A DNA stretch of 64,000 nucleotides from Algisphaera agarilytica (lineage in GTDB: Bacteria > Planctomycetota > Phycisphaerae > Phycisphaerales > Phycisphaeraceae), in assembly GCF_014207595.1 (NCBI RefSeq), contig NZ_JACHGY010000001.1, forward strand, positions 3,416,836 through 3,480,835, read 5' to 3'. Positions 2,828 to 17,659 of the stretch are shown piece by piece. How positions within the stretch are numbered: position 1 is the first letter of the stretch; every line of letters begins with the position of its first letter. The translations under genes and the position numbers were made by a program. The notes under the pieces were generated by a model. It worked only from the letters and a program-made list of their open reading frames with translations, was not told where the DNA came from and searched no databases.

Positions 2828-2864
2828 AGGCGATAGGCGATCGCAGAAATACCCTCGACAAGAT
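2828..2864. repeat. Left attachment-site copy of the integrated element (putative)
   Basis: This 37-bp stretch matches 17623-17659 with about six mismatches. The core AATACCCTCGACA (2848-2860 and 17643-17655) is identical. In the right copy the core runs into the 3' end of tRNA-Arg, while here only the last few tRNA bases are present. That is the arrangement left by tyrosine recombinases that use a tRNA 3' end. The divergence between the copies suggests an old insertion or an imperfect attP. Confidence 0.72.
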
Positions 2865-2977
2865 ACAAGCCATTCAAGGGAAAAGCGAAAAGGGGCGTTT
2901 TTACTTGTATATAAGGGGTTTTGAGGTGATCGTCGATATGGGCTAAGTCGGTCTTTGAGGGTCTTTTCAGGCGTTTG

Positions 2978-2993
2978 GGTTGTCGCGACAACC
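2978..2993. repeat. 16-bp perfect palindrome, possible recombinase arm site
   Basis: GGTTGTCGCGACAACC is a perfect palindrome about 115 bp inside the left attachment repeat. Its half-site GGTTGTCG occurs twice more at the other end of the element, at 17567-17574 and 17579-17586, just inside the right repeat. The shared motif at both ends suggests binding sites for the integrase or excisionase. That role is inference. Confidence 0.45.
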
Positions 2994-3006
2994 GTCCCTG
3001 CGCAAG

Positions 3007-3029
3007 AAAAACCCCGCCGAATGACGGGG
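3007..3029 (-). terminator. Rho-independent terminator on the minus strand
   Basis: Read on the minus strand, GCCCCG and CGGGG arms enclose a short loop and are followed at once by TTTTT (3011 down to 3007). It would end transcription of the HNH-like gene and the hairpin-rich region downstream of it. Confidence 0.7.
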
Positions 3030-3471
3030 CTGTAAGGGGCAAAGACTGGGCAGTTACCACGCCACCCTCCTCCGCTCCTAGGTTAGTTTATGCCCGACCT
3101 GACGGGCCAATACGGTAAGCGGGCTTTCGCCCGACTCGCCGCGTTCCGGGGGCACAAAGAAGCTGGTAACCACACCGCCCCTCCAAGCACCTGGGTTTAA
3201 TTCAATGGGGTCGCTAGGCCGTCCCATGAATCCCGCCTCAGCCATCTCAGAATGAGGCGAGTGTTCGCTCGGGCAATACATTTTGGCGGTAGGTCGCCAC
3301 CCTATCTCACAGCCACCCGCTCCATAGGTTCGAGGGTTGTTTAGTTGTGCCAAGCGAACAGCCACAGAGTACCCGTGTGCCAACCCGCGTCTACCCCGGA
3401 TAAATTCGGGGTTACATTCTGGCGGCTGCGTCGGGACAATGGCGGCGGCAGGAGGAGGGTTGGATCTGGGC
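3030..3471 (-). other. Hairpin-rich stretch without a convincing gene
   Basis: No ORF here looks like a protein family. A 152-codon frame (3536-3078) overlaps the end of the HNH-like gene and has atypical composition. On the minus strand the region holds many complementary arms, for example CGCCTCA with TGAGGCG near 3234-3259, CCCCG with CGGGG near 3396-3411, and GCGGGC with GCCCGC near 3118-3132. It ends in the terminator at 3007-3029. It may be a structured RNA transcribed with, or after, the HNH-like gene, but no known RNA family could be assigned by eye. Confidence 0.3.
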
Positions 3472-4224
3472 TTAGGTTCCCCGGCTGTCGTAACGCAGTT
3501 CATCAACATACTCGGGCCCGTAGTACATGGGGCCATGTTCGCGTTGGTCGTACGCCGCAGCTATGAAGTCAAAGCCGTCAAAGAACCGCATGGACCATAT
3601 GTGGCCCACGCTTTCGTCGATTGACTTTCTGGCAAACTTAAAGCACCCGCCCGCCCTTGAATGGAAATCCGAGCCAGCGAATTTCCCCGCGATCCGCTCA
3701 ACTGCCTCACGCTCTGTCTTTGGCGACCTATTAATCGACATGCCATCAAGGACGCTTACGGCAAGCTCCGACGGCATTGGCTGTTCGAACTCCCAGAAAT
3801 ACAAGCCAAGCGTGATTCGCTCAACCACGGAGTGAATACGACGGTAATCCACGTCATAGCTGGGGGCGCGGCCTGTGTATATCCCCTTTGGGGATACTAC
3901 ATCCCTGACCTTGACCGCCCGCAGGAATGCATCGCGGAAACCCTTCGCCTCCGGTCGCCAGAGCGACTTGGCAGCGATACTGGCCGCTCTAGCGGCCTCA
4001 GGGTGTTCGCCCACCTTGCTTTCTGCGCACAGCACCAACCTGAAGTATTCGTCGTCTTGCGACGCCCGCTTGTTCAGGCCGTCACAACACGGAACCGTGA
4101 TCGGGTTGCTCCGCTCTGTTGGAAACAGGCATTTCGGCGGTACATGATCTCGAGACAGGTTGTCCGACCACCTTCCGGTATATGCACAAACGCCTGATCT
4201 TTTTTTACCCTTAGGTCGGGACAT
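3472..4224 (-). CDS. HNH-endonuclease-like protein
   Basis: This is a 250-residue protein. Near the N-terminus CAYTGRWSDNLSRDHVPPKC and then VPCCDGLNKRASQDDEYFR (about residues 13-64) match the HNH fold, with the D-H pair of the beta-beta-alpha-metal site and a cysteine pair that could bind zinc. The usual CxxC spacing is altered and the second Cys pair reads CC, so activity is uncertain. The remaining 185 residues are not recognised. The gene lies inside the integrated element, is visibly less GC-rich than the chromosomal genes, and is followed by a hairpin-rich region and a terminator. It is shorter than IsrB and has no RuvC motifs, so it is not an RNA-guided nickase that I can recognise. 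Confidence 0.65.
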   Translation of the reverse strand: MSRPKGKKRSGVCAYTGRWSDNLSRDHVPPKCLFPTERSNPITVPCCDGLNKRASQDDEYFRLVLCAESKVGEHPEAARAASIAAKSLWRPEAKGFRDAFLRAVKVRDVVSPKGIYTGRAPSYDVDYRRIHSVVERITLGLYFWEFEQPMPSELAVSVLDGMSINRSPKTEREAVERIAGKFAGSDFHSRAGGCFKFARKSIDESVGHIWSMRFFDGFDFIAAAYDQREHGPMYYGPEYVDELRYDSRGT

Positions 4225-4368
4225 ATGCTTCCACCCGGTTGGTATCGCTGACTAATTCTCCTTCCGCTACTCCCAAGCCGGTCAAGTGCGACTAGGATAG
4301 GTTAGCGGGGTGACGACTGTTTCGTGCAGTCAGCCGACAGCTGGCCATTAACGTTAGGCGACAAGGTT

Positions 4369-4596
4369 ATGCCGCTCAGCACCGGTTTATACGTTGGGGT
4401 GTTTGGTCTCGGTTTGTTTCTCCTAGGCTGGTTTTTCTTCCGCAAGCCGGGAATCGCACTCGGGACATTCGCTCCAGTATGGCGAGCCAACCACTATCTG
4501 AAGCCTACCGGGGCAGTGCTTTGGGTATGTGGCTCTGTGATAGCGCTTGCAGGCGGGGCTTTGTACATAGCGAGTCTCATTTCTCGCAATAGCTGA
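4369..4596 (+). CDS. Small two-helix membrane protein
   Basis: The 75-residue product starts MPLSTGLYVGVFGLGLFLLG. It has one hydrophobic helix at about residues 5-24 and a second at about 50-70 (GAVLWVCGSVIALAGGALYIASLI), joined by a basic loop. No family is recognised. The ATG at 4369 is preferred over 4324 because GGCGACAAGG lies just upstream and the membrane segment follows directly. It sits alone between the divergent HNH-like gene and the long surface protein, within the integrated element. Confidence 0.5.
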   Translation: MPLSTGLYVGVFGLGLFLLGWFFFRKPGIALGTFAPVWRANHYLKPTGAVLWVCGSVIALAGGALYIASLISRNS

Positions 4597-5037
4597 CGCG
4601 GCATAACTACCGGCTGCAGTTGGCTGGCTACACACTCACCCAAACCTCGCCCCCGGCCGCCGGGCGACCTCAATCCATGTCCCACCCCAGCGCCTCAGAC
4701 AACGCAACTGCGGCCGTATAGCGGTCCCGCCTTGGACCTCCCATGTCTTGGGCCCCTGGTTGTAGACGGCTTAGTCTTGGGGGCCAGCGGGGCCGCCGAC
4801 CCTTCGGTCATCTCCGCCCGCTCGCTGCGCAAGCGGTAACATCCACTCGATCGATCTGGTGATGAGGGGGGCTGGCCGATCGATAGTCAGTAGAATGTAT
4901 AGGATAGGGGCGACCAAGAAGGCCGTAGGCGCTAAATCGTTCCTGCGATATGCTGCGGCTCTATCACATCTTCTTTGGCCGTATGGCGTAAGTAGCGTGG
5001 AGCGGGGTTATTGGGGGTTGGGCAGAAAGGGCTGGTT
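4597..5037. other. Intergenic region upstream of the PEP-CTERM surface protein
   Basis: These 441 bp contain no ORF that I support. The last part ends in AGAAAGG, a Shine-Dalgarno sequence for the ATG at 5038. Around 4890-4900 there are TAGAAT and TATAGG hexamers that could serve as a -10 element, but I see no matching -35, so no promoter is called. Confidence 0.4.
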
Positions 5038-7404
5038 ATGGCTATGGATCGTGTTATGCGGAAGACTTGGGTGGCGGGCGTTTGGGCTTCGGCGTCACTC
5101 GCAGTGGCGGGTGCCAGCCACGCGGTCGACTGGGTCGGGACGTTCGGCGACAACTGGGGCGACGGGATCAACTGGTCCGGGTTGGCGGGGCCCGGGCTCA
5201 CCGACACCGCTACGTTCGATCGGCTGACGCCGCTGGGCGTGGTTTCGCCGCGCAAAACCGTCGTACTGAGTACACCCAAGTCGATCGCGCAACTTGATAT
5301 TTTTGACCCCGACGGGGTAGGCGGATACACATTTGTGCGGGGCCTTAACGGTTTTCTTTCGGTGTCGGGTGATGCCACTATTTTCGGGGAAGACGGCGGG
5401 GCTGATGTCACCACGTTTGATGGATTCCAAGTATTGGCCGGGAATTTGATTGTTCGGCCTGAAGCGGCTTTGGCTTTGGAAAACGCCGCGGCCGTAACTT
5501 CCCTCGGCAGTTTCAATGTGCTGGAATCAAGCTCCGCGTCGGTGACCGGTTCGACGGTCACGGCCACAAATGTGTATGTGCAAGGCGGCCAACTCGATAT
5601 TCATGACGGATCGACCGTCACATCGCTGCGGACCACGCCCGGCGCGATTCTGGCAAACAATGGTTCGCTGACCATTAATGACGGCGGGACATTAAGCCTC
5701 TCTGCGGAGAGAGTAGAGATTCTGTCGGGGACGCTTACGCTGAACGATGGGGGCGAGCTTAACCTCGCCGAAAGCGCTTGGCTGCGAGCGTCGGGGGCGA
5801 ATTCCAAGATCGACTTCAAAGAGTCCTACAACATTGTGAGCAGCAATGAGTTCATCGTGAGCTTCGGGGGTAGCTTTACGAGCACGACGTATTTGGATGT
5901 GGGCAACAGCGGGGCGGGGGTCCTGTTTGTGACCAACGAGGGCACGGTTTCGATGCAATCGCTGGCCGAGTGGGGGCGTGGAATAGAAGGTAACGCAGAG
6001 GTGGTGATTAATTCAAACAGCGTCGCGACCGCCCGCGATTTGGGGCTGGGCGTCGACAACGGCACTGCCAGCCTGCGCGTCACCGACTCCAGTTTGACCA
6101 CCTCGGGGACGTTCGAGATGGGCGGCGGCAGCGTAGATCGAGCGGTCGATTTTGTGGTGGGCAACGACAGCGTGTTCACTGCCAACGGTTTGGCGACGCT
6201 GAATAATGAGGCTAATCTCGACCTCGTCGGCGGCGAGGTGAACTTCAACGCCGGGGCTGAGATCAATGAGGGCGCCCTGCTCGACTGGAACGGTGGCAGT
6301 CTTAATTTCGCCGAGCAGACGTTGGCGATCAACGGCGGAACGATCGATGTCACCGCTGGCGGGCGGCAGCTCAGCAACAACGCGACGCTGAACATCACCC
6401 GCAGCGGCACGGTGGGCGGGACGTTCACGTCGGACGCGTTTTTCGATCTGGGTAACGGCACGATGAACATCACTGGCGAAGACTCGATTTATCGGATTTT
6501 GAGCGGGGCCAGCACCACCGACTGGGCAAGAATCAACGGAGAGGAAGCGGTCGTTACTGTGCGTGACATGGGCGAGATCGATGTGCAGTCTTCGCTGCGG
6601 CTGGGTAGCAGTGGCCGGGCGACGGTGAACGTGATCAGCGATGGCGTATTGCGGGCCGGGGTGTTGAACGCCGGCGGCAACGCCACCTCGGATGTATTTC
6701 TCGGGGTGGCGACCGGCGGGTTGGTGGAAGTCGGCTCGGCCATGCTGGGTCAAGGCACCGACTTGCTGCTGGTCAACGACGGCACGTTGACGACAACCGG
6801 CGATCTGACACTGACCTCGGGCACCGTGGCTCAGCTCAACACCGGCGGCAAGTTAAATGTCGGCGGTAACCTCACCGCCTCGGGCCGGATCGAGGTGGAG
6901 TTGTCAGCCCCCAGCACGTTTGAATCCATCAATGTGACCGGGGAGGCGGCTTTGGGTGGGACGTTGGCTTTGTCGTTGGCCCCGGACTTTACGCCTGTGG
7001 ATCAGCAGATATTCGAGGTTTTGAGCATCGGCGTGGAGCCGACGTCGGGTTTTCAGGCCATCGAGTTCCCCGAGCTCCAAGGGTTTTCGTTTCAGGTGAT
7101 CTACGACCAGTTTTTCGTGCAGATTCAAGCCATCGCCGACCCGGCGTTGTTGGGCGACTACAACGGCAACGGCGTGGTGGATGCAGCGGATTACACGGTG
7201 TGGCAAGACAGCTTCGGTTCGATGGTGGACCTGGCTGCAGACGGTAACGGTAATGGTGTGGTTGATGCTGCCGACTATACGGTGTGGCAGGACAACTTTG
7301 GGATTACTGCCCCAGCAGGCGGAGCGTCAGTTGTGATACCTGAGCCAAGCGTGCTTGCACTTACAGTTCTTGGAATGATTTGTGCGTCGCATCGTAGGCG
7401 CTAG
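5038..7404 (+). CDS. Long repetitive beta-strand surface protein with dockerin-like repeats and PEP-CTERM tail
   Basis: The product is about 788 residues. A signal peptide ends near ASHA at about residue 29. A mature region follows of short glycine/asparagine-rich repeats of the type NGGTLTLNDGG, like autotransporter-associated or right-handed beta-solenoid strands (about residues 80-640). A globular segment follows. Then come two dockerin-type calcium repeats, DYNGNGVVDAADYTVWQDSF and DGNGNGVVDAADYTVWQDNF (about 710-765). The tail VIPEPSVLALTVLGMICASHRRR is a PEP-CTERM sorting signal. Such proteins are exported and probably processed by an exosortase. The Shine-Dalgarno AGAAAGG at 5024-5030 fixes the ATG at 5038. 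The gene lies inside the integrated element next to phage tail genes, which is unusual cargo. Confidence 0.85.
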   Translation: MAMDRVMRKTWVAGVWASASLAVAGASHAVDWVGTFGDNWGDGINWSGLAGPGLTDTATFDRLTPLGVVSPRKTVVLSTPKSIAQLDIFDPDGVGGYTFVRGLNGFLSVSGDATIFGEDGGADVTTFDGFQVLAGNLIVRPEAALALENAAAVTSLGSFNVLESSSASVTGSTVTATNVYVQGGQLDIHDGSTVTSLRTTPGAILANNGSLTINDGGTLSLSAERVEILSGTLTLNDGGELNLAESAWLRASGANSKIDFKESYNIVSSNEFIVSFGGSFTSTTYLDVGNSGAGVLFVTNEGTVSMQSLAEWGRGIEGNAEVVINSNSVATARDLGLGVDNGTASLRVTDSSLTTSGTFEMGGGSVDRAVDFVVGNDSVFTANGLATLNNEANLDLVGGEVNFNAGAEINEGALLDWNGGSLNFAEQTLAINGGTIDVTAGGRQLSNNATLNITRSGTVGGTFTSDAFFDLGNGTMNITGEDSIYRILSGASTTDWARINGEEAVVTVRDMGEIDVQSSLRLGSSGRATVNVISDGVLRAGVLNAGGNATSDVFLGVATGGLVEVGSAMLGQGTDLLLVNDGTLTTTGDLTLTSGTVAQLNTGGKLNVGGNLTASGRIEVELSAPSTFESINVTGEAALGGTLALSLAPDFTPVDQQIFEVLSIGVEPTSGFQAIEFPELQGFSFQVIYDQFFVQIQAIADPALLGDYNGNGVVDAADYTVWQDSFGSMVDLAADGNGNGVVDAADYTVWQDNFGITAPAGGASVVIPEPSVLALTVLGMICASHRRR

Positions 7405-7744
7405 ACGTAGTTACGAATTAGATCAGGGGCGACCAATCCAACAAATGCGACATCGCATATCGCCGCCGCCGGTTCGTCTACTCGTCCGGTGTATGCAGAT
7501 TCACCGCTTCCGGCACTCCCGTAACTCCCGCCCCAAAACCTCCGCGGCTTACGCCGAACTTCAGTGGGATCTCAATTTCTGGAGATCGTTTTTTCTTTCA
7601 CTTAACCGGCCTGGATGTTAATATAGGTGTTCGATCGATGTGAATCATGATTCTCGGGCAATCTGTATCCTGCCATTTGTACTGCTTCCGGACTTGATAG
7701 CACAATTCATCGGTTTAGAAGCTACCTGCAAAGGAGTTTTTGTG
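7405..7744. other. Intergenic region between the two exported-protein genes
   Basis: The stretch is 340 bp. A 79-codon frame that begins inside the end of the previous gene (7382-7621) is basic and family-less and is judged a shadow. The useful content is a candidate promoter at 7597-7624 and a strong Shine-Dalgarno sequence before 7745. Confidence 0.4.
7597..7624 (+). promoter_or_regulatory. Candidate promoter for the secreted protein
   Basis: TTCACT at 7597-7602 and TAATAT at 7619-7624 are separated by 16 bp. The resulting leader to the ATG at 7745 would be about 115 nt. The call rests on hexamer similarity only. Confidence 0.35.
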
Positions 7745-8512
7745 ATGCTACGTCATGATTTTCGTGCACCATTCATCGGTGTTGCTCTTCTCGCGTGTTT
7801 GAGTGTATTGGCCAGTCATGCGGCCTCTCAACCTGTATTCAGCCAAGAGTTGAACTCAAGCGAAGGATTAGGGTTTACCAATTCCAGTTCTACGCCCCTC
7901 AGTTTGACGAACGTGGTTCGTCTAGTCGAGCCGTTTAACCCACCGTTTAACTTTGATAATTTCGAGGGATATATCGAAGAGTTCACTGTGGTGCACTCTG
8001 CTGACGGAACGCCAGGTAATACAGCTTCTACTTACTCGTTAGACGCGCATGTCAATAACAGTTTTGAGTTTGTTACAGGGAACATGGTTTTTCCGTTTGT
8101 GAAAGAAGCATTCAGCCGTAGTGAGGTGACTTTAACCCTTGATGCGCCCTCTACCGTAACATTGGATGCGACATACTCATCTACCCTTTCAGGTGGGTAT
8201 CAAGATCTTTACTCCCTAAACGAAGGGATGATTATTCGGGCTGATCTGTACTTTGGTGTAACAGGTGTTGCGCCCATAGTGAAACCGCTGGGAATAGTAC
8301 AGCCAGCAGATGTGGGGAATGGTATTAGCGAAGTGACGAGTAACTTTAGCGATTCAGACTCTGTCGCTTTAAGTCTTCCCGCTGGCGTCTATACCATTTA
8401 TGTGGAAGTTGTGGGTAAGAACGAAAACCCTTTCCCGTACAACCATGCACCGGCTTATGTGGGAAGTTCTATTGCCACGGCTGGCCTTGATATTTCAGTT
8501 ACATCTGACTAG
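7745..8512 (+). CDS. Secreted protein of unknown function
   Basis: The 255-residue product begins MLRHDFRAPFIGVALLACLSVLASHAAS, a clear signal peptide, followed by a soluble region rich in Ser, Thr and beta-strand-like patches. No family and no sorting tail are recognised. AAAGGAG at 7730-7736 fixes the ATG at 7745 rather than the in-frame ATG at 7640. The coding sequence is visibly more AT-rich than all neighbours, which suggests acquisition from another source. It ends just before a strong terminator and converges on the tape measure gene, so it probably forms a separate cargo unit within the element. Confidence 0.7.
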   Translation: MLRHDFRAPFIGVALLACLSVLASHAASQPVFSQELNSSEGLGFTNSSSTPLSLTNVVRLVEPFNPPFNFDNFEGYIEEFTVVHSADGTPGNTASTYSLDAHVNNSFEFVTGNMVFPFVKEAFSRSEVTLTLDAPSTVTLDATYSSTLSGGYQDLYSLNEGMIIRADLYFGVTGVAPIVKPLGIVQPADVGNGISEVTSNFSDSDSVALSLPAGVYTIYVEVVGKNENPFPYNHAPAYVGSSIATAGLDISVTSD

Positions 8513-8553
8513 CAAGCCCTGTAATTACTGATAATCTCAGTGCTATAGCTAAT

Positions 8554-8592
8554 GTGCGCGGCGGAGTGCCTGGTGGCTCCCGCCGTGCTTTT
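8554..8592 (+). terminator. Rho-independent terminator after the secreted protein
   Basis: GCGCGGCGG and GTGCC pair with GGC and CCCGCCGTGC across a short loop and are followed by TTTT (8589-8592). It lies 40 bp beyond the stop codon of the secreted protein gene. Confidence 0.75.
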
Positions 8593-8666
8593 CATAGGTG
8601 TCGCCTCTGGCACGCGGATTCGTCATGCTTCACGCTCTTCACCCGCGTACTCACTGTCGGACAATT

Positions 8667-10724
8667 TTATCTAAGCAGAACTACCTCTTCGCCACCACGA
8701 TACTGATCCGCGACGACCTTAGTCTGCTCCTTGATCGCCGCAACAATCGCCTGCTCGCCCCTTGTCAGCGCGGTTGACTTCAACGCCTGGATCGCTCCTG
8801 AGTTCGTCACGCCCCGCGTGATGTCGCGTCGGACCCCGATGTCATTTAGGCCTTCTTGTAGCTTCGCAAACCGCAACCGGAACAGCTCCCGAATCTTGTT
8901 CGGGTCTTCGCCGTTCTGCCGGGCGTCACGCAGACGCTGTGACTGTTCGAGCTTCAACAGCTCGCGTTGTCGATCCACGCCGGTGGTGCCCAGCTCCACG
9001 CGCAGGCGGTCGATCTCGTCTTGCAGCGACCGGTTGCCGCCGCCGGTGATCTGGCCGACTTCCCGCTTGACCGCATCGTCGATCTGGCGGGATAGCTCAG
9101 CCGACAGCAGCCCCAGCTTGTCGGCCTGTCGCTTGAGCAGGTCAGCCGAGCGATTGATGTCTCCGATCTGCGCGTCTTGGGCGTCGCCCAGGAACTGGCC
9201 AAGCTCGAAGTCGAACTCGTCGCGCGCCGCCACATAGTTCGCGGCGGCCTTGCGCAGCGTGTCGGCGATCTGGTCGGCAAACTTAGCCAACGGCGAGGTC
9301 GTGACACTGCGGGCTTCTGCGGGTGCCTCGGTGACCTTCTTCAACAGCTCCTGCTCTTTGGCGAGCTGCTTTTCAAGCTTGCGGATGGTGCGGTCGCGGA
9401 TGGTCCCGGCGAATAGCGGTTGAGCGCCCTCACGCGGGATGATGGCGTCGGTCGATCCGATGCCCAGGCGTTCCTCGGCCTTCCTTAGCCGCCGCATGGC
9501 CGCGATCTGGTCCTCGATGGCTCGTATGGCCTCGCGCCGGGCTTCCTGCTCTGCGTCCGTCCCAGCGGCCTCCTGTAGCTTCTGCGCGGCCCTGATGGCC
9601 TCGGTCGTCGTCCGCTTCACCGCATCGGCGGCGTCTTCCAGCTTGAGGGATTGCGATGTCTCCTTGGCCACCTTGTCGAGTATGCGCAGGTTGTCGGCGA
9701 TGCCGAGTACAGCGCCGCCGAAGTCGATGCCCGCGACCTTGCCGTCGTTGAAGTAACCCACGATGCCCGCCAGGCCTGCGGTCAGCCCGGCGGGGATCAG
9801 CAGCGCCGGGTTCAACGCCAGTCGCAGGCCTCCCAGGGCGAACGACAAGCCGCGCGCTGCGATACCCACGCCCAGTATGGTGCCGCCCAGGCCGGTGAGC
9901 GTTGCGCCGAGCTTGAGGTTTCCGCGTGCGAGGTCTTCGTTGTCCCGCACGACGTTCTGCAAGCCCTTGCTGGCCTCAGCGGCCCGCTCAGCAAACTTCC
10001 GAATCTCTGGCGACACCGCTTCACCCAGCGCGAACGCGACGCGTTGCAGGCTGGTGGTCAGGATGTTCATCGTGTCAGTGAGCTTCGCCGCTTCCTTGGC
10101 CGAGCTACGCCCGATAGTGAACCCAAGCTCGCGGGCCTGACGCTGTAGCTTCTCCATGCCCTGAGCGCCATCGGCGAACAGGGGGAGTAGCCGCTGGCCT
10201 GCACGACCAAACACCTGCATTGCCGTCGCTGCTCGCTTAGTCGGGTCGGGGATCGCCGCCAGCCCGTCAGCCACGGCCTTGAGCTGATCCTCGGGCGATA
10301 GGCTTTGCAGGTCGGCGAAGCTCAAGCCCAGGTCGGAGAACGCCTGAACGGGCGTCGATAGCCCCTTGCCCAGGTCGTTGATGGAGCGCTGTAACCGACG
10401 CACACCGCTCTCAAGCTCAGTGAAGTTGCTGCCCGACTGCTCAGCCGCAAAACCAAGCTCGGACAACGCCTCCACGGTCACACCGGTACGTGATGCGGCC
10501 TTGTCGAGCGAGTCGCCGAAGCTGGCGAACACCTTGGCCGATGCAATGAACGGTGCGGTGATCGAAGTGCCCAGCCCGGCCAGTCGTGTGCCGATCTCGG
10601 TGGCCTTGCGACCGAAGCGGTTTAGCTCGGCCTCGACGGTGCGCAGCCCTTTCATCAACGCCGATTTCTCTAGGGAGAACTCGACGAACGCGCCGCCTGC
10701 TCGGATGTCTCTTGCACCTGCCAT
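8667..10724 (-). CDS. Phage tail tape measure protein
   Basis: The 685-residue protein has the features of tape measure proteins. The N-terminal start FVEFSLEKSALMKGLRTVEAELNRFGRKA leads into the conserved segment FASFGDSLDKAASRTGVTVEALSELGFAAEQSG. A hydrophobic segment lies at about residues 270-330, and a long charged, probably coiled-coil, C-terminal half follows. These proteins set the length of the tail tube and help eject the genome. A chaperone-like gene lies directly upstream with a 3-bp gap, as in siphophages. No tail tip, fibre or baseplate gene follows; the next gene is on the opposite strand and unrelated. Confidence 0.88.
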   Translation of the reverse strand: MAGARDIRAGGAFVEFSLEKSALMKGLRTVEAELNRFGRKATEIGTRLAGLGTSITAPFIASAKVFASFGDSLDKAASRTGVTVEALSELGFAAEQSGSNFTELESGVRRLQRSINDLGKGLSTPVQAFSDLGLSFADLQSLSPEDQLKAVADGLAAIPDPTKRAATAMQVFGRAGQRLLPLFADGAQGMEKLQRQARELGFTIGRSSAKEAAKLTDTMNILTTSLQRVAFALGEAVSPEIRKFAERAAEASKGLQNVVRDNEDLARGNLKLGATLTGLGGTILGVGIAARGLSFALGGLRLALNPALLIPAGLTAGLAGIVGYFNDGKVAGIDFGGAVLGIADNLRILDKVAKETSQSLKLEDAADAVKRTTTEAIRAAQKLQEAAGTDAEQEARREAIRAIEDQIAAMRRLRKAEERLGIGSTDAIIPREGAQPLFAGTIRDRTIRKLEKQLAKEQELLKKVTEAPAEARSVTTSPLAKFADQIADTLRKAAANYVAARDEFDFELGQFLGDAQDAQIGDINRSADLLKRQADKLGLLSAELSRQIDDAVKREVGQITGGGNRSLQDEIDRLRVELGTTGVDRQRELLKLEQSQRLRDARQNGEDPNKIRELFRLRFAKLQEGLNDIGVRRDITRGVTNSGAIQALKSTALTRGEQAIVAAIKEQTKVVADQYRGGEEVVLLR

Positions 10725-10727
10725 GAC

Positions 10728-11192
10728 TTACCCCCTCGCGCCCTTAATCAGTTCGTCGGTCAGCTTGTCCACGTCGATGGCCGCGATCTGCTTCTGTGCC
10801 AGCTTGGCAAGTGCGGCGTCGGCATCCTGGAGCTGGCGGACCATGTTGTGCATCGCCTTACGCTGATCGGGGTGCGGGTAGAACTCGCAGATCGCATCGG
10901 TCAGGGCGATCTGTGCCCTCGCCAGCGCATCGCCGGTGACGCGGTAGCCAAACTCGGCGTCGGTCATTCCCTTAGCCTCGAACTGCTCGCGGCAGGCGAT
11001 GATTACGCAGAGGCCACAGAACACCCAATCGGTGAGTATCCGCATGAGCGCCGGTGTTTCGGTCGTTGACGCGAAGCCGACGCCCAGCTCGCTTTCGACT
11101 GTCTGAAAGAACTTGTAGCCGGTTTGGATAGACCACTTCGTACCGGCATTGTCTTTGAACGCGAACGACTTTGTTGTTTTAGTCTTCTTCAT
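10728..11192 (-). CDS. Putative phage tail assembly chaperone
   Basis: The 154-residue soluble protein starts MKKTKTTKSFAFKDNAGTKWSIQTGY. Its position immediately upstream of the tape measure gene is that of the G-type tail assembly chaperone. Sequence similarity to a named family could not be established by eye, so the call is positional. AGCAGGAC before the ATG serves as the ribosome-binding site. No slippery heptamer for a G/GT-type frameshift was seen at its 3' end. Confidence 0.5.
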   Translation of the reverse strand: MKKTKTTKSFAFKDNAGTKWSIQTGYKFFQTVESELGVGFASTTETPALMRILTDWVFCGLCVIIACREQFEAKGMTDAEFGYRVTGDALARAQIALTDAICEFYPHPDQRKAMHNMVRQLQDADAALAKLAQKQIAAIDVDKLTDELIKGARG

Positions 11193-11301: not shown

Positions 11302-11340
11302 CAGGAGTCCGCACTATCACAGTGCGGCCGTTATGAAATC

Positions 11341-11613
11341 TCATTTGACACGGGCCTTTGCGCCATACCGTGAACCGAACCGGCGGCGATTGAGCCTCTC
11401 GGTCTCGTCGGACAGCCGGTTCCACTCGGTAAGCGTGTGGCCGTCGCCCCCGAAATCGTCGAGTGATAGTTCGGAGCCTCTCTCCCCATATCCACAGACG
11501 CCCACGACCTTGTAACGTGGTTCACGCTTTGGCTTGACTGCTAAGCGCGGGGCAGCGGCGTTGGATTGGACGCGGATGAGTTCTGCGAATGTCTTTCGGG
11601 TGGAGCTTGTCAT
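11341..11613 (-). CDS. Small hypothetical phage protein
   Basis: The product is 90 residues, basic at the N-terminus (STRKTFAELIRVQ) and C-terminus, with a central acidic patch (ERGSELSLDDFGGDG). No family is recognised. AGGAA lies about 9 nt before the ATG. It is the last gene of the block upstream of the terminator at 11266-11301. The overlapping 78-codon frame at 11189-11425 is rejected. Confidence 0.55.
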   Translation of the reverse strand: MTSSTRKTFAELIRVQSNAAAPRLAVKPKREPRYKVVGVCGYGERGSELSLDDFGGDGHTLTEWNRLSDETERLNRRRFGSRYGAKARVK

Positions 11614-11640
11614 GGTGGGTTCCTAGATATGGGGTACGGA

Positions 11641-12303
11641 TTAGAACGACGCCAGCGCTGCGCGGGAGTCACGGATCGCCGTTGCGTTGTGATCGCGGCC
11701 AGATTCGGCATCGCGATGTTTCTCGGTTAATGAGCCGATGGTGATGGTGGAGTTGCCCAGGTCGCCGAGCGCGGCTGTGATGAGTTTTGAGTTGCGGGCT
11801 TTGCCTTGCCAGTTGATGCAGCCTCCCGCGTTCTGGCTGTCGTATGGCCTCGCCTCGTAGTGGCCGCTCGCCACCATCTTTTCGATCCAGTCGGCATCCA
11901 ATCGCTCGACCTCGGCCCTGCAGTGCTCGCGGTAAGCTTCGGCGTCCTTCCGTACAAGCTTGACCACATCGATTACCGTCGAGCAGGCTCGCATCGCGTC
12001 TCGAAACAGCGTGATAGCCCGCTCGTGGATTGTGCCGTTGGACTTGATCGCCTTGTCGGTGAGCTCCACCGGGTCGGCGCATTTGAACGCGTGGTTCTCG
12101 TCCTCCAACTTGGTCTTGGTCGCGGCGAGTTTGGCCAGGGTTGAGTTGATTTCCACTACAGCCGACTCGGTTTCGTCGCTGAACCAGTCATACACCTGGA
12201 ACGGTGATGGGATGGCGACGCCCAGGCGGGTTCGTAGCCGCGTGTTGGGGTCTTGGGGCGGGCGGTGGCCTCGGGTGGGGGTAAATGGTCGATCGATGCT
12301 CAT
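11641..12303 (-). CDS. Hypothetical phage protein, partly coiled coil
   Basis: The 220-residue product starts MSIDRPFTPTRGHRPP. Residues about 45-110 contain a helical, charged segment (SAVVEINSTLAKLAATKTKLEDENHAF) that looks coiled coil. The rest is helical and soluble. No family is assigned. AAGGA lies about 9 nt before the ATG at 12303, so the longer frame to 12414 is not used. Confidence 0.6.
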   Translation of the reverse strand: MSIDRPFTPTRGHRPPQDPNTRLRTRLGVAIPSPFQVYDWFSDETESAVVEINSTLAKLAATKTKLEDENHAFKCADPVELTDKAIKSNGTIHERAITLFRDAMRACSTVIDVVKLVRKDAEAYREHCRAEVERLDADWIEKMVASGHYEARPYDSQNAGGCINWQGKARNSKLITAALGDLGNSTITIGSLTEKHRDAESGRDHNATAIRDSRAALASF

Positions 12304-12420
12304 GGTTCGCGTCCTTGCGAGGGGGGGGGAGAGATAACAATCCGTTTTGATCATTTTCTCAGGATAAAAACAACAAACAACAAAACTTTGAACGGTTTTG
12401 TGTTGAGGGAACAAAAACTT

Positions 12421-12600
12421 TCACCTTCGGATGACCACATAGCGCGTCGGGTCGCCGAATTCATTAGTGCAGGTCAGACATTCGCATCTCAGCTCGCGCG
12501 ACTCGCCACCCAGCTGGCGGCTGTGCGTGATCTTTCGCTCAATCGACCCGCACTTAGGGCAACGGGCGGCGGTTTCGGTGACGGCGGGGATTTTGCTCAT
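12421..12600 (-). CDS. Small zinc-ribbon protein, Ogr/Com-like
   Basis: The 59-residue product carries RCPKCGS and, after about 20 residues, LRCECLTCTNEF, an arrangement like the zinc-binding regulators Ogr/Delta of P2-type phages or Com of Mu. In those phages the protein activates late genes or regulates translation. Here the role is inference from the cysteine pattern. Its ATG overlaps the TGA of the upstream gene as ATGA, so the two are translationally coupled, which also fixes the start at 12600. Confidence 0.6.
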   Translation of the reverse strand: MSKIPAVTETAARCPKCGSIERKITHSRQLGGESRELRCECLTCTNEFGDPTRYVVIRR

Positions 12601-12932
12601 TGCTCCGCCTCCACCAACTGCACCGCGCGGGTGCTGCCCGTCTTGACCACGCGCCACAGCCCCGCAGCTTCGCCAGACTTCAACGCACGGCTGAACGCAA
12701 CCGCCTCGCGATTGGTCGGAGAATGGCCCAGGATGGCCGCAGCGCTTGCGGGGGCGACACCGGCCTCGGCATCTGTCTGCATGGCGTCATACGCCGTTCT
12801 AGCGGCTGTATATCGCTGCCACGCATCCACGGTGATGGGGTCGGGTCTTGCAGGCGGTTCGGTATCCTTGGCCTGCTCAAACCAGCGGCGTGCGTGGGCC
12901 AAAATGGCGGCTTGTAAGTTGCTTTCGATCAT
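12597..12932 (-). CDS. Hypothetical phage protein with possible winged-helix region
   Basis: The product is 111 residues. The C-terminal half, PASAAAILGHSPTNREAVAFSRALKSGEAAGLWRVVKTG, has the spacing of a helix-turn-helix followed by a wing, so it may bind DNA. No family is recognised. GAGGG lies upstream of the ATG, and the stop overlaps the start of the zinc-ribbon gene by 4 bp. Confidence 0.6.
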   Translation of the reverse strand: MIESNLQAAILAHARRWFEQAKDTEPPARPDPITVDAWQRYTAARTAYDAMQTDAEAGVAPASAAAILGHSPTNREAVAFSRALKSGEAAGLWRVVKTGSTRAVQLVEAEQ

Positions 12933-13019
12933 GGGGTTGCCCTCGGTGTAAGTCAGGGATTAACAAAGTCGGATTTGTGCGAGCTTCCGTTGGTGTCGGG
13001 GGGTTGGGCTTTCGGCTTA

Positions 13020-13046
13020 AGGACCCGTTGGGGGGGTACGGGTCCT
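13020..13046. terminator. Terminator-like inverted repeat
   Basis: AGGACCCGT and ACGGGTCCT form a perfect 9-bp stem around a 9-nt G-rich loop. It lies 55 bp beyond the stop of the minus-strand gene 13102-13293. There is no T-run on that strand, so termination is only possible. Confidence 0.35.
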
Positions 13047-13101
13047 CTTTCGCTTCCGGTGTGATGGCACACTTCGGGAACGTGTCACAACACATAACTC
13101 C

Positions 13102-13293
13102 CTACCTCCCGCACCTCGATTCGCGCAGTTCGGTCGATACGTTCAGCGCTAACGCCTCAGTGACGACCAACAAGCCGACCTGCTCACGTCGATCTTCACC
13201 GGCTTCTGCTGCCTCAGCGGCTTCCGTCAGTGTGTTTGCGAGCTTTCGCCAGCGTTCACGGGTTACGGGGCTCACAGGGTGCTTAGTGCTCAT
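13102..13293 (-). CDS. Small hypothetical phage protein
   Basis: The 63-residue product is helical and charged (TRERWRKLANTLTEAAEAAEAGEDRREQVGLLVV), with no recognised family. Its ATG overlaps the TGA of the initiator-like gene as ATGA, the same coupling as other gene pairs in this row, which is the main reason to accept it. Confidence 0.55.
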   Translation of the reverse strand: MSTKHPVSPVTRERWRKLANTLTEAAEAAEAGEDRREQVGLLVVTEALALNVSTELRESRCGR

Positions 13294-14486
13294 TGATTTT
13301 CTCCCGTGGTGCCCACGCCACGACCGGCACCCACCGACGCGTTAGCGTCGGAAGTGTTCGTTGGGTTTTCCTTCGTTGGGTTTGCTTCTATGGGTCTACT
13401 TCTATGGTGCACGCTGGAGCGGACACCCCCTGCACGTTTATCGTGCACCGGGTGCACGTTTTCTGTTGGGGGAGGTGTCCGTTTATCGTGCACCCCCTGC
13501 ACGTTGAGCGTGCACCCTTGGCGGTCAGATTCGGCCGTCTCAAGCTGGCGAAGTGCGGCGTGGGCGACCTCGCGGGGGCCGACTTCGAGCTGTTCCGAGA
13601 TATCCGCAATCTTGGGTGCCGAGCTTCGCCAGGCGTCCAGGTTGTCCAGCCCAAGCCGGTCCTCGCTCGTGTACGTGGCGTTGAGCTGGTCGCACTCGCC
13701 AACGATGATCTGCATGCGTGTGCTTACCGCCTCGGCAACAGCGTCGTCGTCAATCCACCCAGACCCTGCGCGACCTTCATCCTCAAGCGATGGCCCGGCT
13801 GGGTTCTGCAACCCGAACTCGGCTACAGGCGGCTTATCATCGACGTTGAAGGCCCGCTCAAGGGTCGTGGACATGGCGACCACACCCGCTATCACAATGT
13901 CTTCCCAAGCGAAGGGGGCGGCCTTGTGGTCGGGTACCTCTGCCGTCCAGCAAGGGTTGAATTCTGCGAGCACGGGATAGGCATCAAGCATCACGCGCTG
14001 GGTCGTACTGGCCGGTAGGCCCTGCCTGTAGGCCCGTACGGCCTTGCCTGTGGTTTGGCGCTGCCCTTCAAGTGCGGCCATTACATCGGCTGGACCGGGC
14101 CGCTGCTGCTCTGCTCGGTGCATCCCGTTCTCGTCCACATGCGTGAGGCAGTAGACGTTGGGGCGTCCCGAGGTGCCGCCACCGCCAAGCGTTCGCATCT
14201 GCTTCGCCCCGATGTCGGTGTACATGGGCCAGTCAATCACCGCGATCAGGCCAGCTCGTTCAAGCCCGCGTGTCGCCTCGCTCATGGATTGGCGGCGTGT
14301 GATCCCGGTGATCTTCGTAAGCGTCTTATGTGAAGGCCACACCAGCCCCGAGTTGCCGGGTGCGAAGTGTTCGGCCAGGGCGATGTACACCCGTAGCTCG
14401 TTGCCTGTGAGCTCTGAGAGCCAGTGGCGGGTAAAGCCGTTGGTCAGGGCGATGAACCGGTCTAGGCGATCGAGTTTTGGGCTCAT
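13290..14486 (-). CDS. Winged-helix replication-initiator-like protein
   Basis: The 398-residue product starts MSPKLDRLDRFIALTNGFTR. Residues about 25-85 (LTGNELRVYIALAEHFAPG, LVWPSHKTLTKITGITRRQSMSEATRGLERAGLIAV) form a winged-helix domain like those of plasmid and phage initiators (HTH_36, lambda O type). The C-terminal third is hydrophilic and repetitive (VHDKR twice). The DNA coding that third holds a cluster of TGCAC repeats, as expected if the origin lies in the initiator gene. The ATG at 14486 overlaps the upstream TGA as ATGA and is chosen over 14498. The initiator function is inference. Confidence 0.6.
   Translation of the reverse strand: MSPKLDRLDRFIALTNGFTRHWLSELTGNELRVYIALAEHFAPGNSGLVWPSHKTLTKITGITRRQSMSEATRGLERAGLIAVIDWPMYTDIGAKQMRTLGGGGTSGRPNVYCLTHVDENGMHRAEQQRPGPADVMAALEGQRQTTGKAVRAYRQGLPASTTQRVMLDAYPVLAEFNPCWTAEVPDHKAAPFAWEDIVIAGVVAMSTTLERAFNVDDKPPVAEFGLQNPAGPSLEDEGRAGSGWIDDDAVAEAVSTRMQIIVGECDQLNATYTSEDRLGLDNLDAWRSSAPKIADISEQLEVGPREVAHAALRQLETAESDRQGCTLNVQGVHDKRTPPPTENVHPVHDKRAGGVRSSVHHRSRPIEANPTKENPTNTSDANASVGAGRGVGTTGENQ
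13407..13515. repeat. Iteron-like cluster of TGCAC repeats inside the initiator-like gene
   Basis: Seven TGCAC cores fall in 109 bp, at 13408, 13431, 13444, 13453, 13489, 13498 and 13511, most inside the palindrome GTGCAC. Two longer units are exact direct repeats: CACCCCCTGCACGTT (13424 and 13491) and GTTTATCGTGCACC (13436 and 13481). The spacing is mirror-like (23, 13, 9, 36, 9, 13). This suits a replication origin bound by the encoded protein, but coding repeats in a low-complexity tail are an alternative. Confidence 0.5.
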
Positions 14487-14704
14487 CCTCGCCCCCAAGC
14501 GCCGCGCAACAGGCCTTCAGAGGCAAAGCGGTAGGCGTCGATGCGGTGATACCGCTCGCCGTCGATTTCGTGATCCGCTTGTTCGATGTGAGCCATGAAC
14601 GTTTGCCCTCCAGACTTGCCACCGATGGCGGTGCAAAGTTGGTATCCGGGGCTTTGTTCGTGGTCGTGGGTGGGTACGATGTGGGTGTTCGGGGAATCTT
14701 CCAT
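14483..14704 (-). CDS. Small hypothetical phage protein
   Basis: The 73-residue product begins MEDSPNTHIVPTHDHEQSPG and has no recognised family. GGAG lies 9 nt before the ATG at 14704, which is preferred over an upstream GTG at 14725. Its TGA overlaps the ATG of the initiator-like gene. Confidence 0.5.
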   Translation of the reverse strand: MEDSPNTHIVPTHDHEQSPGYQLCTAIGGKSGGQTFMAHIEQADHEIDGERYHRIDAYRFASEGLLRGAWGRG

Positions 14705-14780
14705 GTCTTTGATCTCCGCCGACACCCGCTTTAGCTGGGCTTGGTGTCGGCTAGGCGCGCGGCGTCCGTGCCGCGCTGGG

Positions 14781-15038
14781 TTAGGCGATGTATTGGGTGC
14801 GGCCAGGCGTCACTCGACGGCGGTGCCTCCGTTTGGGCTGGGGCGTCGATGCGGCCTTGGCGTCGGCGATGTACTGAGCGAGCGATTCAGGCTCGACTCG
14901 CCACTCGCGCCGCTTGGCGGTCGGGTCGAGATACCAGGCTTCGATGAGGCCGCGCTCGAACAGCGACACTGCGGCGTCGTAGCCGCAGTTCAATGCCTCG
15001 CACACGTCACGGGTCTTAAGGGGCTTTGCGTTCTTCAT
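14781..15038 (-). CDS. Excisionase-like small DNA-binding protein
   Basis: The 85-residue product has a helix-turn-helix/MerR-like region at residues about 7-58 (LKTRDVCEALNCGYDAAVSLFERGLIEAWYLD, then EWRVEPESLAQYIADAK), followed by an arginine-rich tail. Size, fold and location in an integrase-containing element suit an excisionase or recombination directionality factor, though a regulator is equally possible. It is the first gene after a terminator, so it probably has its own promoter in 15039-15057. Confidence 0.55.
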   Translation of the reverse strand: MKNAKPLKTRDVCEALNCGYDAAVSLFERGLIEAWYLDPTAKRREWRVEPESLAQYIADAKAASTPQPKRRHRRRVTPGRTQYIA

Positions 15039-15057
15039 GGGTTCATAAATACCCACG

Positions 15058-15083
15058 AAAAAACCACCCTCAATTGGGTGGTT
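15058..15083 (-). terminator. Rho-independent terminator after gene 15117-15683
   Basis: On the minus strand AACCACCC and GGGTGGTT form a perfect 8-bp stem around a 6-nt loop, and the T-run begins inside the second arm and extends to 15058. It separates the integrase-side genes from the excisionase-like gene. Confidence 0.8.
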
Positions 15084-15116
15084 AGCGCTTCATGTTCGAT
15101 AGCGTACGATCGCGCG

Positions 15117-15683
15117 CTATCCGGTTCGATCCGGCCTCAAAATGTCGGCGGCATCAGGGTTTCTGGACTCAATGGCATCCAGGTCAAAGACATATTTCTT
15201 GCCTTTCGGCGGGCTGAGCTGCCGGTGCGGGATGGTGCTGTCACTCAGAAGCGTGCGCTTGTCCATACCCAGCAGCTCTGCAACCCGCTTGGGGTATTCG
15301 GGGCGAGTGTAGTTCTCGATAGAAACCCCCTCTGATGCTGGCGGTGTCTTGATCTTCCAAAACTTCGGGCGAGGGATTAGAGAGGGGGGCTTCGCTTTGC
15401 TTGACCGCTTCAGACAGCGACGGGCTAGGTCTAGCCACAAATCTTCGTTGGCCGCATCGGGCTTGCTATCGATTTCAGCGCAGAGGCTGGCAAACGATTG
15501 CCTCAGCAGCTCGCCCGCGCTGTCCCAGTCGCTCCTGATGCTTGCTGAGGGCTTATAGTGATTCGTTAGTTCCGCACGAAACTGCCCCCATTCAGCCTCA
15601 GCGAAAAGCTCTTCGGTCCTAGCGATAGAGTCTGCTCGGACAGCGATCTCAACGCGGCGCTTCAGCATCTCTTGTTCAAGCAT
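15117..15683 (-). CDS. Hypothetical phage-element protein
   Basis: The 188-residue product starts MLEQEMLKRRVEIAVRADSIARTEELFAEAEW, probably helical. A basic proline-rich middle follows, and the C-terminus (YPKRVAELLGMDKRTLLSDSTIPHRQLSPPKGKKYVFDLDAIES) reads like a DNA-binding helix-turn-helix of the excisionase or Cro type. No family is recognised. It is followed by a clear terminator. Confidence 0.55.
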   Translation of the reverse strand: MLEQEMLKRRVEIAVRADSIARTEELFAEAEWGQFRAELTNHYKPSASIRSDWDSAGELLRQSFASLCAEIDSKPDAANEDLWLDLARRCLKRSSKAKPPSLIPRPKFWKIKTPPASEGVSIENYTRPEYPKRVAELLGMDKRTLLSDSTIPHRQLSPPKGKKYVFDLDAIESRNPDAADILRPDRTG

Positions 15684-15812
15684 GTGTTTTCACCTTTCAA
15701 CCGGCTGCACCGCCCCCGCCGCCAAGGTGATGGACGGCAGGGGCGGAGCGTTGTGGGAGCTACCCACACCGGCATTGATATTGTAAACGGCTGTTGGTCG
15801 GGGCCGGGTAGT
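15684..15812. repeat. Intergenic region with an inverted repeat
   Basis: CCGCCCC-GCCG near 15709 pairs with CGGC-GGGGCGG near 15747, giving an 11-bp stem with one bulge on each side. There is no T-run, so it is recorded as a hairpin of unknown role between two minus-strand genes. Confidence 0.4.
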
Positions 15813-16241
15813 TCATTTCACCCACGGTAAATCATCCACGCTTCGCCCCAAGTCGTGGTCGTGGCCATCGTCGTGACGGCTTTGCTCGGATTCACGCCAA
15901 TGCTCGAACGCCTCGGCGAATCGGGGATCAAACTCCACGCCCGCCCGCCCCATGACGTCGTACAAGGCAAACAGCGGCGCTGCGGCTTCTAGCTCCATGC
16001 CCTCGGCCACATCATCCCAACACCACGTCCACAGCTCCCACGCTCGCCGCAAGGCGTCTGGCGTCTTTCCAGGCGGATCGGGGAAGCGCGGAGGATCGAA
16101 GTTGACGGGCCATGGCGGTGGGTAGTCTTTAGGGGCTGGCCGGTCCCGGCGTCGGCTGTTCTGTGAGATGTCGTATCGGGCCTGATGGAGAGGGTCGTTA
16201 AAGCGTCTGCGTTCAGCAGGTAGAATCGGGGTAGCTGTCAT
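15813..16241 (-). CDS. Hypothetical phage-element protein
   Basis: The 142-residue soluble product has a proline- and arginine-rich N-terminal third, a central segment RRAWELWTWCWDDVAEGMELEAAAPLFALYDVMGRAGVEFDPRFAEAFEHW, and an acidic histidine-rich tail (HDDGHDHDLG). No family is recognised. It precedes the integrase on the same strand with about 90 bp between. That gap contains GGTCCGA with TCGGACC, possibly the integrase terminator. Confidence 0.5.
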   Translation of the reverse strand: MTATPILPAERRRFNDPLHQARYDISQNSRRRDRPAPKDYPPPWPVNFDPPRFPDPPGKTPDALRRAWELWTWCWDDVAEGMELEAAAPLFALYDVMGRAGVEFDPRFAEAFEHWRESEQSRHDDGHDHDLGRSVDDLPWVK

Positions 16242-16333
16242 CGGTGGTTACCTCATCGATGGTGGTCAGAGCCGCTTTGGTGTCCTACCACCGTTGCGGC
16301 TCGCTTATTTGGCGGGTCCGACGCTCGGACCGC

Positions 16334-17554
16334 TCACTTGTCATACAACCAGCGATAAACGTGGTCGCTCACCGCGCGTAGGGCGGTGTAGTCTTCTTCC
16401 TCGACGTAGTGTTCGAGCATCTCGCCGTCGGCGTGACCCATAATGACTTTGACGGCGTCGCTGTTGCCGCTGCGCTTGCCGATGGTGGCGAACGTCGTGC
16501 GGAACACGCGGAAGCCCCAACCCTTCGGGCGGTCGATCTCGGCCATACGGCAAAGCACCAGGAACCGCTGGAACACGTCGTCGTAGTGGACCACGGCTTT
16601 TATTTCACCCCGGTCGCCGCGCCGTACCTCGCCCGCACTGGTCAGCGGTCGCCCTGTAGGCGACAGGAGCAGCTTGTCGGCGTCCCTTGGGTTGGTGGGG
16701 GTGGGGCGGTCGGCCTGTGCCTCGTCAATGGCGTCGAGCGTCTCCTGCCATACGGGGCAGATACGCGGCACCATCGTCTTGGGGCGGGGCATATCGATCA
16801 GCATAAGGTCGCGGTCGATGTGGGCTTCCTCCAGGTCGCCGCAGTCGGTCGCGCCGAAACCGCAGTTGATGGCCAGCAGGATGCAAGCACGGTCCAGGGG
16901 GGTGCCGACGGCGAGTAGCTTGTGAATCTGTTCGGGCGTGAATAGCCGCTTGCGTCCCTGCTCACGCGACTGGCGCAGGGATCGTTTCAGGCTCTTGACT
17001 GCGAAGTTGTTGCCGAAGCGGGGGGCGTTGGTAAGTAGCTCGGCGTCCTCATACGCCCAGCGGAACACGGTCTTGATGGCGTTCGTGTAGTTCGCCATCG
17101 TCTCGGGCCGGTAGTTCGCCTTGAGCCGGTTCCTGAGCCGTGCGAAGTCTGCGGGCTTCAGGTCGTCGGCGTCCGTCTGAGCGCCCAGCACATCGGCCAC
17201 AATGGCCCCTGCGCGGCGGTAGCGGTTGAATGTCGCCGCACCGATGCCGCCCTCGGTCACTTGGTCTAGGTCGCGTCGCGTCTCCCTCACGTCGGCCTCG
17301 CGGTCGGCGAGATATTCGTTGAAGATGCCCGCAACGGTCACGCTGCCAGACGACGGCGAAGTGTTGGCCGGTCGCCCGGCGTGTAGATCGGCGGCGACAG
17401 CGAGATAGCGGTCGAGCGCCCCGTCGGGGGCGTCCCAGCCCCCGAAGTAGTGAATCTTGCCGAGTATTTTCTTACACCACTGCCCATTCTTGTGGGCGGT
17501 CATCTTTGTGACCTTGGTGTGGGGCCATTTGGGCTTCCGTGCCTGATTTGCCAT
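16334..17554 (-). CDS. Tyrosine recombinase (integrase) of the element
   Basis: The 406-residue product has an N-terminal arm region, a SAM-like core-binding domain (about residues 75-190) and a catalytic domain (about 205-400). MGHADGEMLEHYVEE gives the second His and the nucleophilic Tyr, and FRTTFATIG gives the second Arg. The first catalytic Arg, normally in a GLR motif, is replaced in NCGFGATDCGDL, and the His that precedes the second Arg by three residues is Arg. I recall GFG-type motifs in planctomycete integrases, but cannot check here. It lies just 3' of tRNA-Arg, its likely target. GGAG lies 8 nt before the ATG. Confidence 0.88.
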   Translation of the reverse strand: MANQARKPKWPHTKVTKMTAHKNGQWCKKILGKIHYFGGWDAPDGALDRYLAVAADLHAGRPANTSPSSGSVTVAGIFNEYLADREADVRETRRDLDQVTEGGIGAATFNRYRRAGAIVADVLGAQTDADDLKPADFARLRNRLKANYRPETMANYTNAIKTVFRWAYEDAELLTNAPRFGNNFAVKSLKRSLRQSREQGRKRLFTPEQIHKLLAVGTPLDRACILLAINCGFGATDCGDLEEAHIDRDLMLIDMPRPKTMVPRICPVWQETLDAIDEAQADRPTPTNPRDADKLLLSPTGRPLTSAGEVRRGDRGEIKAVVHYDDVFQRFLVLCRMAEIDRPKGWGFRVFRTTFATIGKRSGNSDAVKVIMGHADGEMLEHYVEEEDYTALRAVSDHVYRWLYDK

Positions 17555-17566
17555 CTTGGTCGCTCC

Positions 17567-17586
17567 GGTTGTCGTTCCGGTTGTCG
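17567..17586. repeat. Tandem GGTTGTCG motifs near the right end
   Basis: GGTTGTCG occurs at 17567-17574 and 17579-17586, between the integrase start and the right attachment repeat, and in palindromic form at the left end (2978-2993). An inverted GCAATC/GATTGC pair follows at 17586-17605. These are candidate arm-type or excisionase sites. Confidence 0.45.
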
Positions 17587-17622
17587 CAATCTGAGTTTGG
17601 ATTGCGAATCGCCTTGTTTTGT

Positions 17623-17659
17623 AGGCGATATGCGATTATAGCAATACCCTCGACAGGAT
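17623..17659. repeat. Right attachment-site copy, overlapping tRNA-Arg
   Basis: This is the partner of the repeat at 2828-2864. The part from 17645 onward is the 3' end of the tRNA gene and the part before it is element-derived. The intact tRNA lies on this side, next to the integrase, as is usual for tRNA-targeting elements. Confidence 0.72.

Follow-up and report, generated by a model that had tools for sequence, protein, structure and literature searches.

Introduction

The closest described systems are the phage-inducible chromosomal island-like elements (PLEs) of Vibrio cholerae, which encode a tape-measure protein (TMP) and a tail-assembly chaperone (TAC), incorporate their own TMP and build chimeric tails of changed length; Mathur, Boyd and colleagues showed this with microscopy, proteomics and transduction experiments (PMC12987554). 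The same authors list PLE-like elements with putative tmp genes, and the legend to their Extended Data Fig. 10 reports such genes from a sampling of capsid-forming phage-inducible chromosomal islands (cf-PICIs) (PMC12987554). Tail assembly is also a target of defence: Tai systems directed at it are described from prophages, phage-inducible chromosomal islands (PICIs) and P4-like satellites (PMC11364771), and Rta is described as acting through the ICP1 TMP (PMC12987554). Here we describe a 14.8-kb element of the planctomycete Algisphaera agarilytica (order Phycisphaerales; genome G000, 4.17 Mb) that carries an intact TMP gene. It lies in a stretch of 64,000 nucleotides (positions 3,416,836 to 3,480,835 of contig NZ_JACHGY010000001.1), referred to henceforth as the window, whose numbering is used throughout. 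We read the element as a phage satellite that would supply its own tape measure to the tails of a helper phage, and we put the probability of this reading at roughly 0.55. Among the matches listed in literature searches on satellites with tape measures and on planctomycete satellites or prophages, in which subscription papers and preprints were thinly covered, there was no report of such elements in Planctomycetota.

The window element resembles the PLEs in being integrated, in having no complete virion of its own and in encoding its own tape measure together with a TAC, the latter probable in the window (PMC12987554). It differs in belonging to another phylum, in having a TMP related to virion clusters of the HK97/lambda type from its own order, in carrying an extra surface-protein cargo and in having no recognised baseplate-hub gene; the likeness drawn here is one of plan. 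cf-PICIs are likewise integrative satellites, and a sampling of them is reported to have putative tmp genes (PMC12987554), but no capsid or packaging genes were recognised in the scanned open reading frames (ORFs) of the window element, while a related element, L088, has a capsid/protease gene. HK97-like prophages of the same order are the source family of the TMP and of o154, the probable TAC, but have in addition terL, portal, capsid/protease, tail tube and further genes, none of which was recognised in the window element. P4-like satellites and classical PICIs, which depend on a helper, also have an integrase at a tRNA gene and a replication gene. The replication protein of P4 is an alpha-type primase, whereas that of the window element is of the HTH_36 type, and we know of no P4-like satellite or classical PICI that relies on a tape measure of its own.

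Borders and gene content of the element

The element is integrated at the 3' end of a tRNA-Arg(TCT) gene with both borders visible, a conclusion that is well supported. The last 22 nt of the intact tRNA gene and the 22 nt downstream of it form a 44-nt sequence that recurs at the far end of the element, with 35 of the 44 positions identical (17623-17666 against 2828-2871). When the tRNA 3' end was scanned against the 17.6 kb to its left, this left copy scored 26, whereas the next-best site scored 11 in the same orientation and 13 in the opposite one. The best score in the remaining 46 kb of the window was 14, and 200 dinucleotide shuffles, a control made for this repeat pair, reached at most 15. 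An earlier note on this DNA had described 37-bp stretches (2828-2864 and 17623-17659) with about six mismatches and a 13-nt identical core at the tRNA 3' end; direct counting gave exactly 6 mismatches, and the core covers the final 11 nt of the tRNA and 2 nt beyond. The tyrosine recombinase gene, which the same note had placed just inside the tRNA-proximal copy, does start some 90 bp inward from the tRNA end; it lies 3' of tRNA-Arg and is read in the same direction. Both a direct repeat of the tRNA 3' end and a site-specific recombinase adjoining the tRNA, as expected of a tRNA-integrated element, were thus found.

The features are listed below; the Pfam scans covered 17 ORFs of the element and the PHROGs scans 16, and the likely kefF start codon was chosen among in-frame candidates.

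2828..2871, minus strand: attR-like repeat copy (att, attachment site), identical at 35 of 44 positions, some 70 bp upstream of where kefF probably starts
3472..4224, minus strand: HNH-like protein, 250 aa, possible cargo; motif reading, PHROG HNH at E 0.52, no Pfam or NCBIfam family
4324..4596, plus strand: small protein, 90 aa; no family assigned in Pfam, NCBIfam and PHROGs scans
5011..7404, plus strand: predicted surface protein, 797 aa, possible cargo; dockerin below cut-off, PEP_CTERM above its cut-off
7640..8512, plus strand: 290-aa protein in a low-GC stretch; no family in Pfam, NCBIfam, PHROGs or PADLOC
8667..10724, minus strand: TMP, 685 aa, intact; PHROG TMP at E 1e-31, TIGR01760 above cut-off, Pfam PhageMin_Tail below cut-off
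10728..11192, minus strand: o154, 154 aa, probable TAC; homologues positioned after the tail-tube gene, fold matches, none significant
11341..11613, minus strand: 90-aa protein; no family
11641..12414, minus strand: 257-aa protein; no significant family
12421-12657: unassigned ORF; PHROG tail-category matches at E 0.25 and 0.48
12597..12932, minus strand: 111-aa protein; PHROG of unknown function at E 0.001
13290..14498, minus strand: replication-initiator-like protein (REP), 402 aa; HTH_36 above cut-off, PHROG replication initiation at E 1e-5
14483..14725, minus strand: small ORF, 80 aa, seen as an ORF alone; no Pfam family, no significant PHROG
14781..15056, minus strand: small helix-turn-helix protein, weakly excisionase-like; HTH_17 at E 2e-4, below cut-off, PHROG excisionase at E 0.04
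15117..15683, minus strand: 188-aa protein of no assigned family; nothing in Pfam or PHROGs
15813..16241, minus strand: 142-aa protein of no assigned family; nothing in Pfam or PHROGs
16334..17554, minus strand: tyrosine recombinase (INT), 406 aa; PF00589 above cut-off, PHROG integrase at E 1.3e-26
17623..17666, minus strand: attL-like repeat copy; tRNA 3' end and 22 nt downstream
17645..17718, minus strand: tRNA-Arg (TCT), integration target, intact (ARAGORN)

The earlier note had named the HNH-like gene and the integrase and had missed the tape-measure gene, the only scanned ORF with a significant head, packaging or tail match in Pfam and PHROGs. No capsid, portal or terminase was recognised in the scanned ORFs or by tblastn of prophage queries, and no Pfam match to a relaxase or to type IV secretion was found among the 17 proteins scanned. 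Genes for integration and replication are present while a full virion set is not, the combination by which a phage satellite is recognised. REP was found in 3 of 301 genomes of the order, its own included, two of them weak. Used as single-protein queries, REP, INT and TMP found no relative in viral contigs; an alignment query did match. For the HNH-like gene, two weak relatives were found on plasmids and none in the phages searched.

The tape-measure protein and its neighbour o154

TMP homologues, usually about 665 aa long, were found in 64 of 251 genomes of the order and 117 of 397 genomes of the class; as scoring was confined to the top 4 to 6 candidates of each genome, copy numbers are lower bounds. 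Their usual setting is one virion cluster with terL, portal, capsid/protease, decoration, tail completion, tail tube, gp10, TMP and two post-TMP genes. At least 4 further genes of this cluster were present in 20 of the 22 TMP neighbourhoods inspected first, and an o154 homologue in 14 of them. All 40 class-level loci chosen had at least 2 further virion genes, and among the best 80 of 510 matching viral contigs, 76 had more than two further virion genes and 4 short ones had exactly two. Phages with this tape measure are therefore common. In total, 40 TMP loci of the order were examined: the window, these 22 and another 17, which were picked largely because no portal was listed nearby, so that the fraction of portal-less loci is not a frequency.

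The window TMP gene is intact, and its sequence looks constrained: it matches 47 of 53 conserved columns and 28 of 111 variable columns, as defined by 28 prophage-type rows. Divergent prophage TMP rows give similar values (for example, 38/52 and 21/117 in L105).

The o154 gene ends 3 bp before the TMP gene. Of the 39 other loci of the order, 17 encode a homologue of its product (21-27% identity) behind the tail-tube gene, the usual place of a TAC. In those 17 clusters gp10 lies between the o154 homologue and TMP, whereas it is absent between them in the window. For the predicted model of o154 (pLDDT 83.8), the top match in BFVD is named tail assembly chaperone (probability 0.97, E 0.038; no match reaches 0.001), and the HK97 chaperone 2ob9 scored Z 3.4 (rmsd 6.2, 82 aligned), tied with unrelated chains. 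The model had no significant match in the Protein Data Bank (PDB), and profile and family searches of o154 gave no convincing sequence family. We regard o154 as a probable TAC, mainly from the position of its homologues.

Other tape-measure elements of the order

TMP was the only clearly recognised head or tail gene, window o154 apart, in four tRNA-bounded integrase elements, namely the window element, L143, L144 and L155; the family scans of the other elements covered many of their ORFs. Two more loci, L088 and L056, also combine an integrase with TMP, and the five relatives of the window element are built as follows.

L143: at tRNA-Thr(TGT), repeat 46/46, 9.2 kb; primase, TMP frameshifted
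L144: at tRNA-Pro(TGG), repeat 48/49, 11.2 kb; two integrases, replication initiator, TMP last
L155: at tRNA-Phe, repeat 19/20, 9.2 kb; primase, two excisionase-like proteins
L088 (G221:C12): at tRNA-Pro(GGG), repeat 42/42, 10.3 kb; primase, TMP and capsid/protease, no recognised portal or terminase
L056: integrase away from tRNA, no att repeat found; primase homologous to that of L155, TMP and one post-TMP gene

The integrases of the six elements fall into three types (window and L143; L144 and L088; L056 and L155), and their replication genes differ, with primase types shuffled among them. L156 was considered as a portal-less TMP element and rejected; by eye it is a full, different phage. 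TMP loci on contigs that were too short (L145, L146, L151, L152, L157-L160 and L162) were not counted, nor was L147, where the TMP frame ends early near a contig end.

A tree was built from 35 N-terminal TMP regions, with rows L156, L157, L158 and L160 excluded beforehand. The window TMP pairs with that of L143 (100/97), whose row fills just 49% of the columns, and the pair then joins L088 (95/78). L144, L056 and L155 stand elsewhere on long branches, L155 meeting another long branch. None of the six elements lies inside a well-supported prophage clade. The element label needs three changes on this tree, and well-supported branches force only one.

Larger tail modules were seen beside comparable integration and replication genes. 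L153 and L055 (G138:C2:1-26990) have an integrase and a primase, followed by tail tube, o154 homologue, gp10, TMP and post-TMP genes, and no head or packaging gene was found in them by tblastn of prophage queries or by eye; either may possibly be a tail-carrying satellite or a tailocin-like element. In L195 (G383:C4), capsid/protease, tail genes and TMP lie beside an L088-like primase and a helix-turn-helix gene, with no portal or terminase match by tblastn.

A proposed satellite with its own tape measure

The satellite reading draws on the anatomy of the window element, the homology of its genes and the recurrence of its plan, and from these we infer excision, helper use, packaging and tail remodelling by the element. 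Upon infection by a helper siphovirus, of a kind common in the order, the element would excise and replicate. The helper would then provide the capsid, the terminase and the greater part of the tail, into which the element would put its own TMP, with its own chaperone. There the TMP would determine how long the chimeric tail is and, possibly, its compatibility.

A broader proposal, to which we give slightly less than an even chance, is that Phycisphaera-like planctomycetes host a set of small tRNA-integrated satellites formed by module shuffling, in which the tape measure is the common defining virion gene, with tail remodelling as a primary strategy of satellites that emerged separately from the Vibrio PLEs. 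If this is true, elements with one or two recognised virion genes, always with a tape measure, in a distant phylum would make tail-assembly control a recurrent satellite strategy. They would also offer simple systems in which to ask how having its own tail ruler benefits a satellite, be it through length, escape from tail-targeting defence or exclusion of helper genomes.

Several observations weigh against the satellite reading. The host genome has no PF05136 portal and no match to the prophage portal of the order, and a resident helper of this type was not found in it; a packaging signal, a helper and induction are all putative for this element. Divergence between the att copies may mean that the element has lost its mobility. 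The assignment of o154 as a TAC comes without a significant sequence-family or fold match, and among 11 related loci compared, its homologues occur only in L055 and L195, both with larger tail modules. INT and TMP are the sole window proteins with homologues in the other TMP-only elements; as there are no further common proteins, these elements have a common plan and not a common gene set. No TMP-only element was present among the best 80 of 510 viral contigs. One ORF of L155 has a weak terminase-small-subunit match (E 0.0018), its excisionase match being better (E 6.5e-6). Finally, the TMP of L143 is frameshifted, and a primase of the L088/L143 type also lies beside larger virion modules in L055 and L195.

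The frameshift in L143, the primase type found beside larger virion modules and the diverged att copies would also fit a decayed prophage, that is, an integrated siphovirus from which deletions removed the head and packaging genes and most of the tail genes, with o154 and TMP left over. The homology of both proteins to virion-cluster genes points the same way, as do partial portal genes in the order, which may reflect decay or contig ends. Nevertheless, we consider this origin unlikely. TMP is the recurrent survivor in four elements that have three integrase types and differing replication genes. The 3-bp spacing of o154 and TMP in the window departs from the 17 clusters in which gp10 separates them, and the TMP ORF is intact and apparently still constrained, its nearest relative in the tree being the TMP of another such element.

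We give still less weight to an integrated island of the defence type, whose TMP and o154 would be decoys that poison the tail assembly of an infecting phage, with no packaging. Tail assembly is a known defence target, as in the Tai and Rta reports (PMC11364771; PMC12987554), but PADLOC found no known defence family in 10 element proteins other than TMP, o154 and INT. Moreover, excision and replication genes would be needless for a decoy, and a full-length TMP with a likely chaperone suits assembly better than inhibition. An ordinary genomic island with TMP as incidental cargo is very improbable, since TMP recurs in small elements that are otherwise differently built, even though the left 5.8 kb, with its surface protein and HNH-like gene, is as in a gene-accreting island.

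The insertion and its left part

The earlier note had proposed that the borders are exact and that everything from the HNH-like gene to the integrase moved as one unit. An integrated element with both borders stands, whereas joint movement is only partly supported, because the repeat copies have diverged and an empty site was not found. A scan of the interval revealed no third att-like copy between the borders, which favours a single insertion. The window copies are 80% alike, compared with 46/46, 42/42, 48/49 and a short 19/20 in the four other tRNA-bounded TMP elements; this points either to an old insertion or to attP and attB sequences that differed from the start. No empty site emerged from kefF, found in 3 of 41 genomes, or from FucU, found in 24 of 51 genomes of the family, the own genome being included both times. 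There was no tRNA near either of the non-own kefF matches or near the 2 inspected of the 23 non-own FucU matches. When 12 tRNA-Arg neighbourhoods were searched by tblastn with 20 window proteins (15 from the element, 5 flanking), the integrase was the sole match, in two of them. Among the relatives' neighbourhoods inspected in the kefF, FucU and tRNA-Arg searches, no locus was syntenic with the kefF/tRNA-Arg site.

The left 5.8 kb (2872-8666) consists of the HNH-like gene, the gene of the 797-aa dockerin-like/PEP-CTERM protein and two unknowns. No homologue of this part was found in 11 related loci compared (E 0.01), which is a weak test because just INT, TMP and o154 of the 15 element proteins matched anything. 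We call it cargo of uncertain age. The GC content is 47-52% at 7000-9000, around the 290-aa gene, compared with about 62-65% in the host flanks.

The integrase and its relatives

INT matches, many of them partial, were found in 17 of 61 genomes, the own genome included, and a search of genome contigs gave one locus, in a Planctomycetota bin. INT and its relatives in L049, L051, L143 and L119 do not have the usual first catalytic arginine and first box-II histidine of tyrosine recombinases, and K259, R264, R352 and Y383 are invariant in an alignment of nine rows. The lack of the two residues is a lineage trait and not decay of the window copy.

Relatives of INT in L051, L052, L053 and L117 (partial in L117) lie on the 5' side of the tRNA, compared with the 3' side in the window. 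In L113 (G001:C137), a contig from the same genus, a tRNA-Arg(TCT) stands amid genes that, read by eye, resemble phage structural genes. In L116 (G028:C43:1-20000), an integrase at tRNA-Arg(TCT) is accompanied by a repeat array and by a 1353-aa gene that, from its motif, presumably encodes a Cas9.

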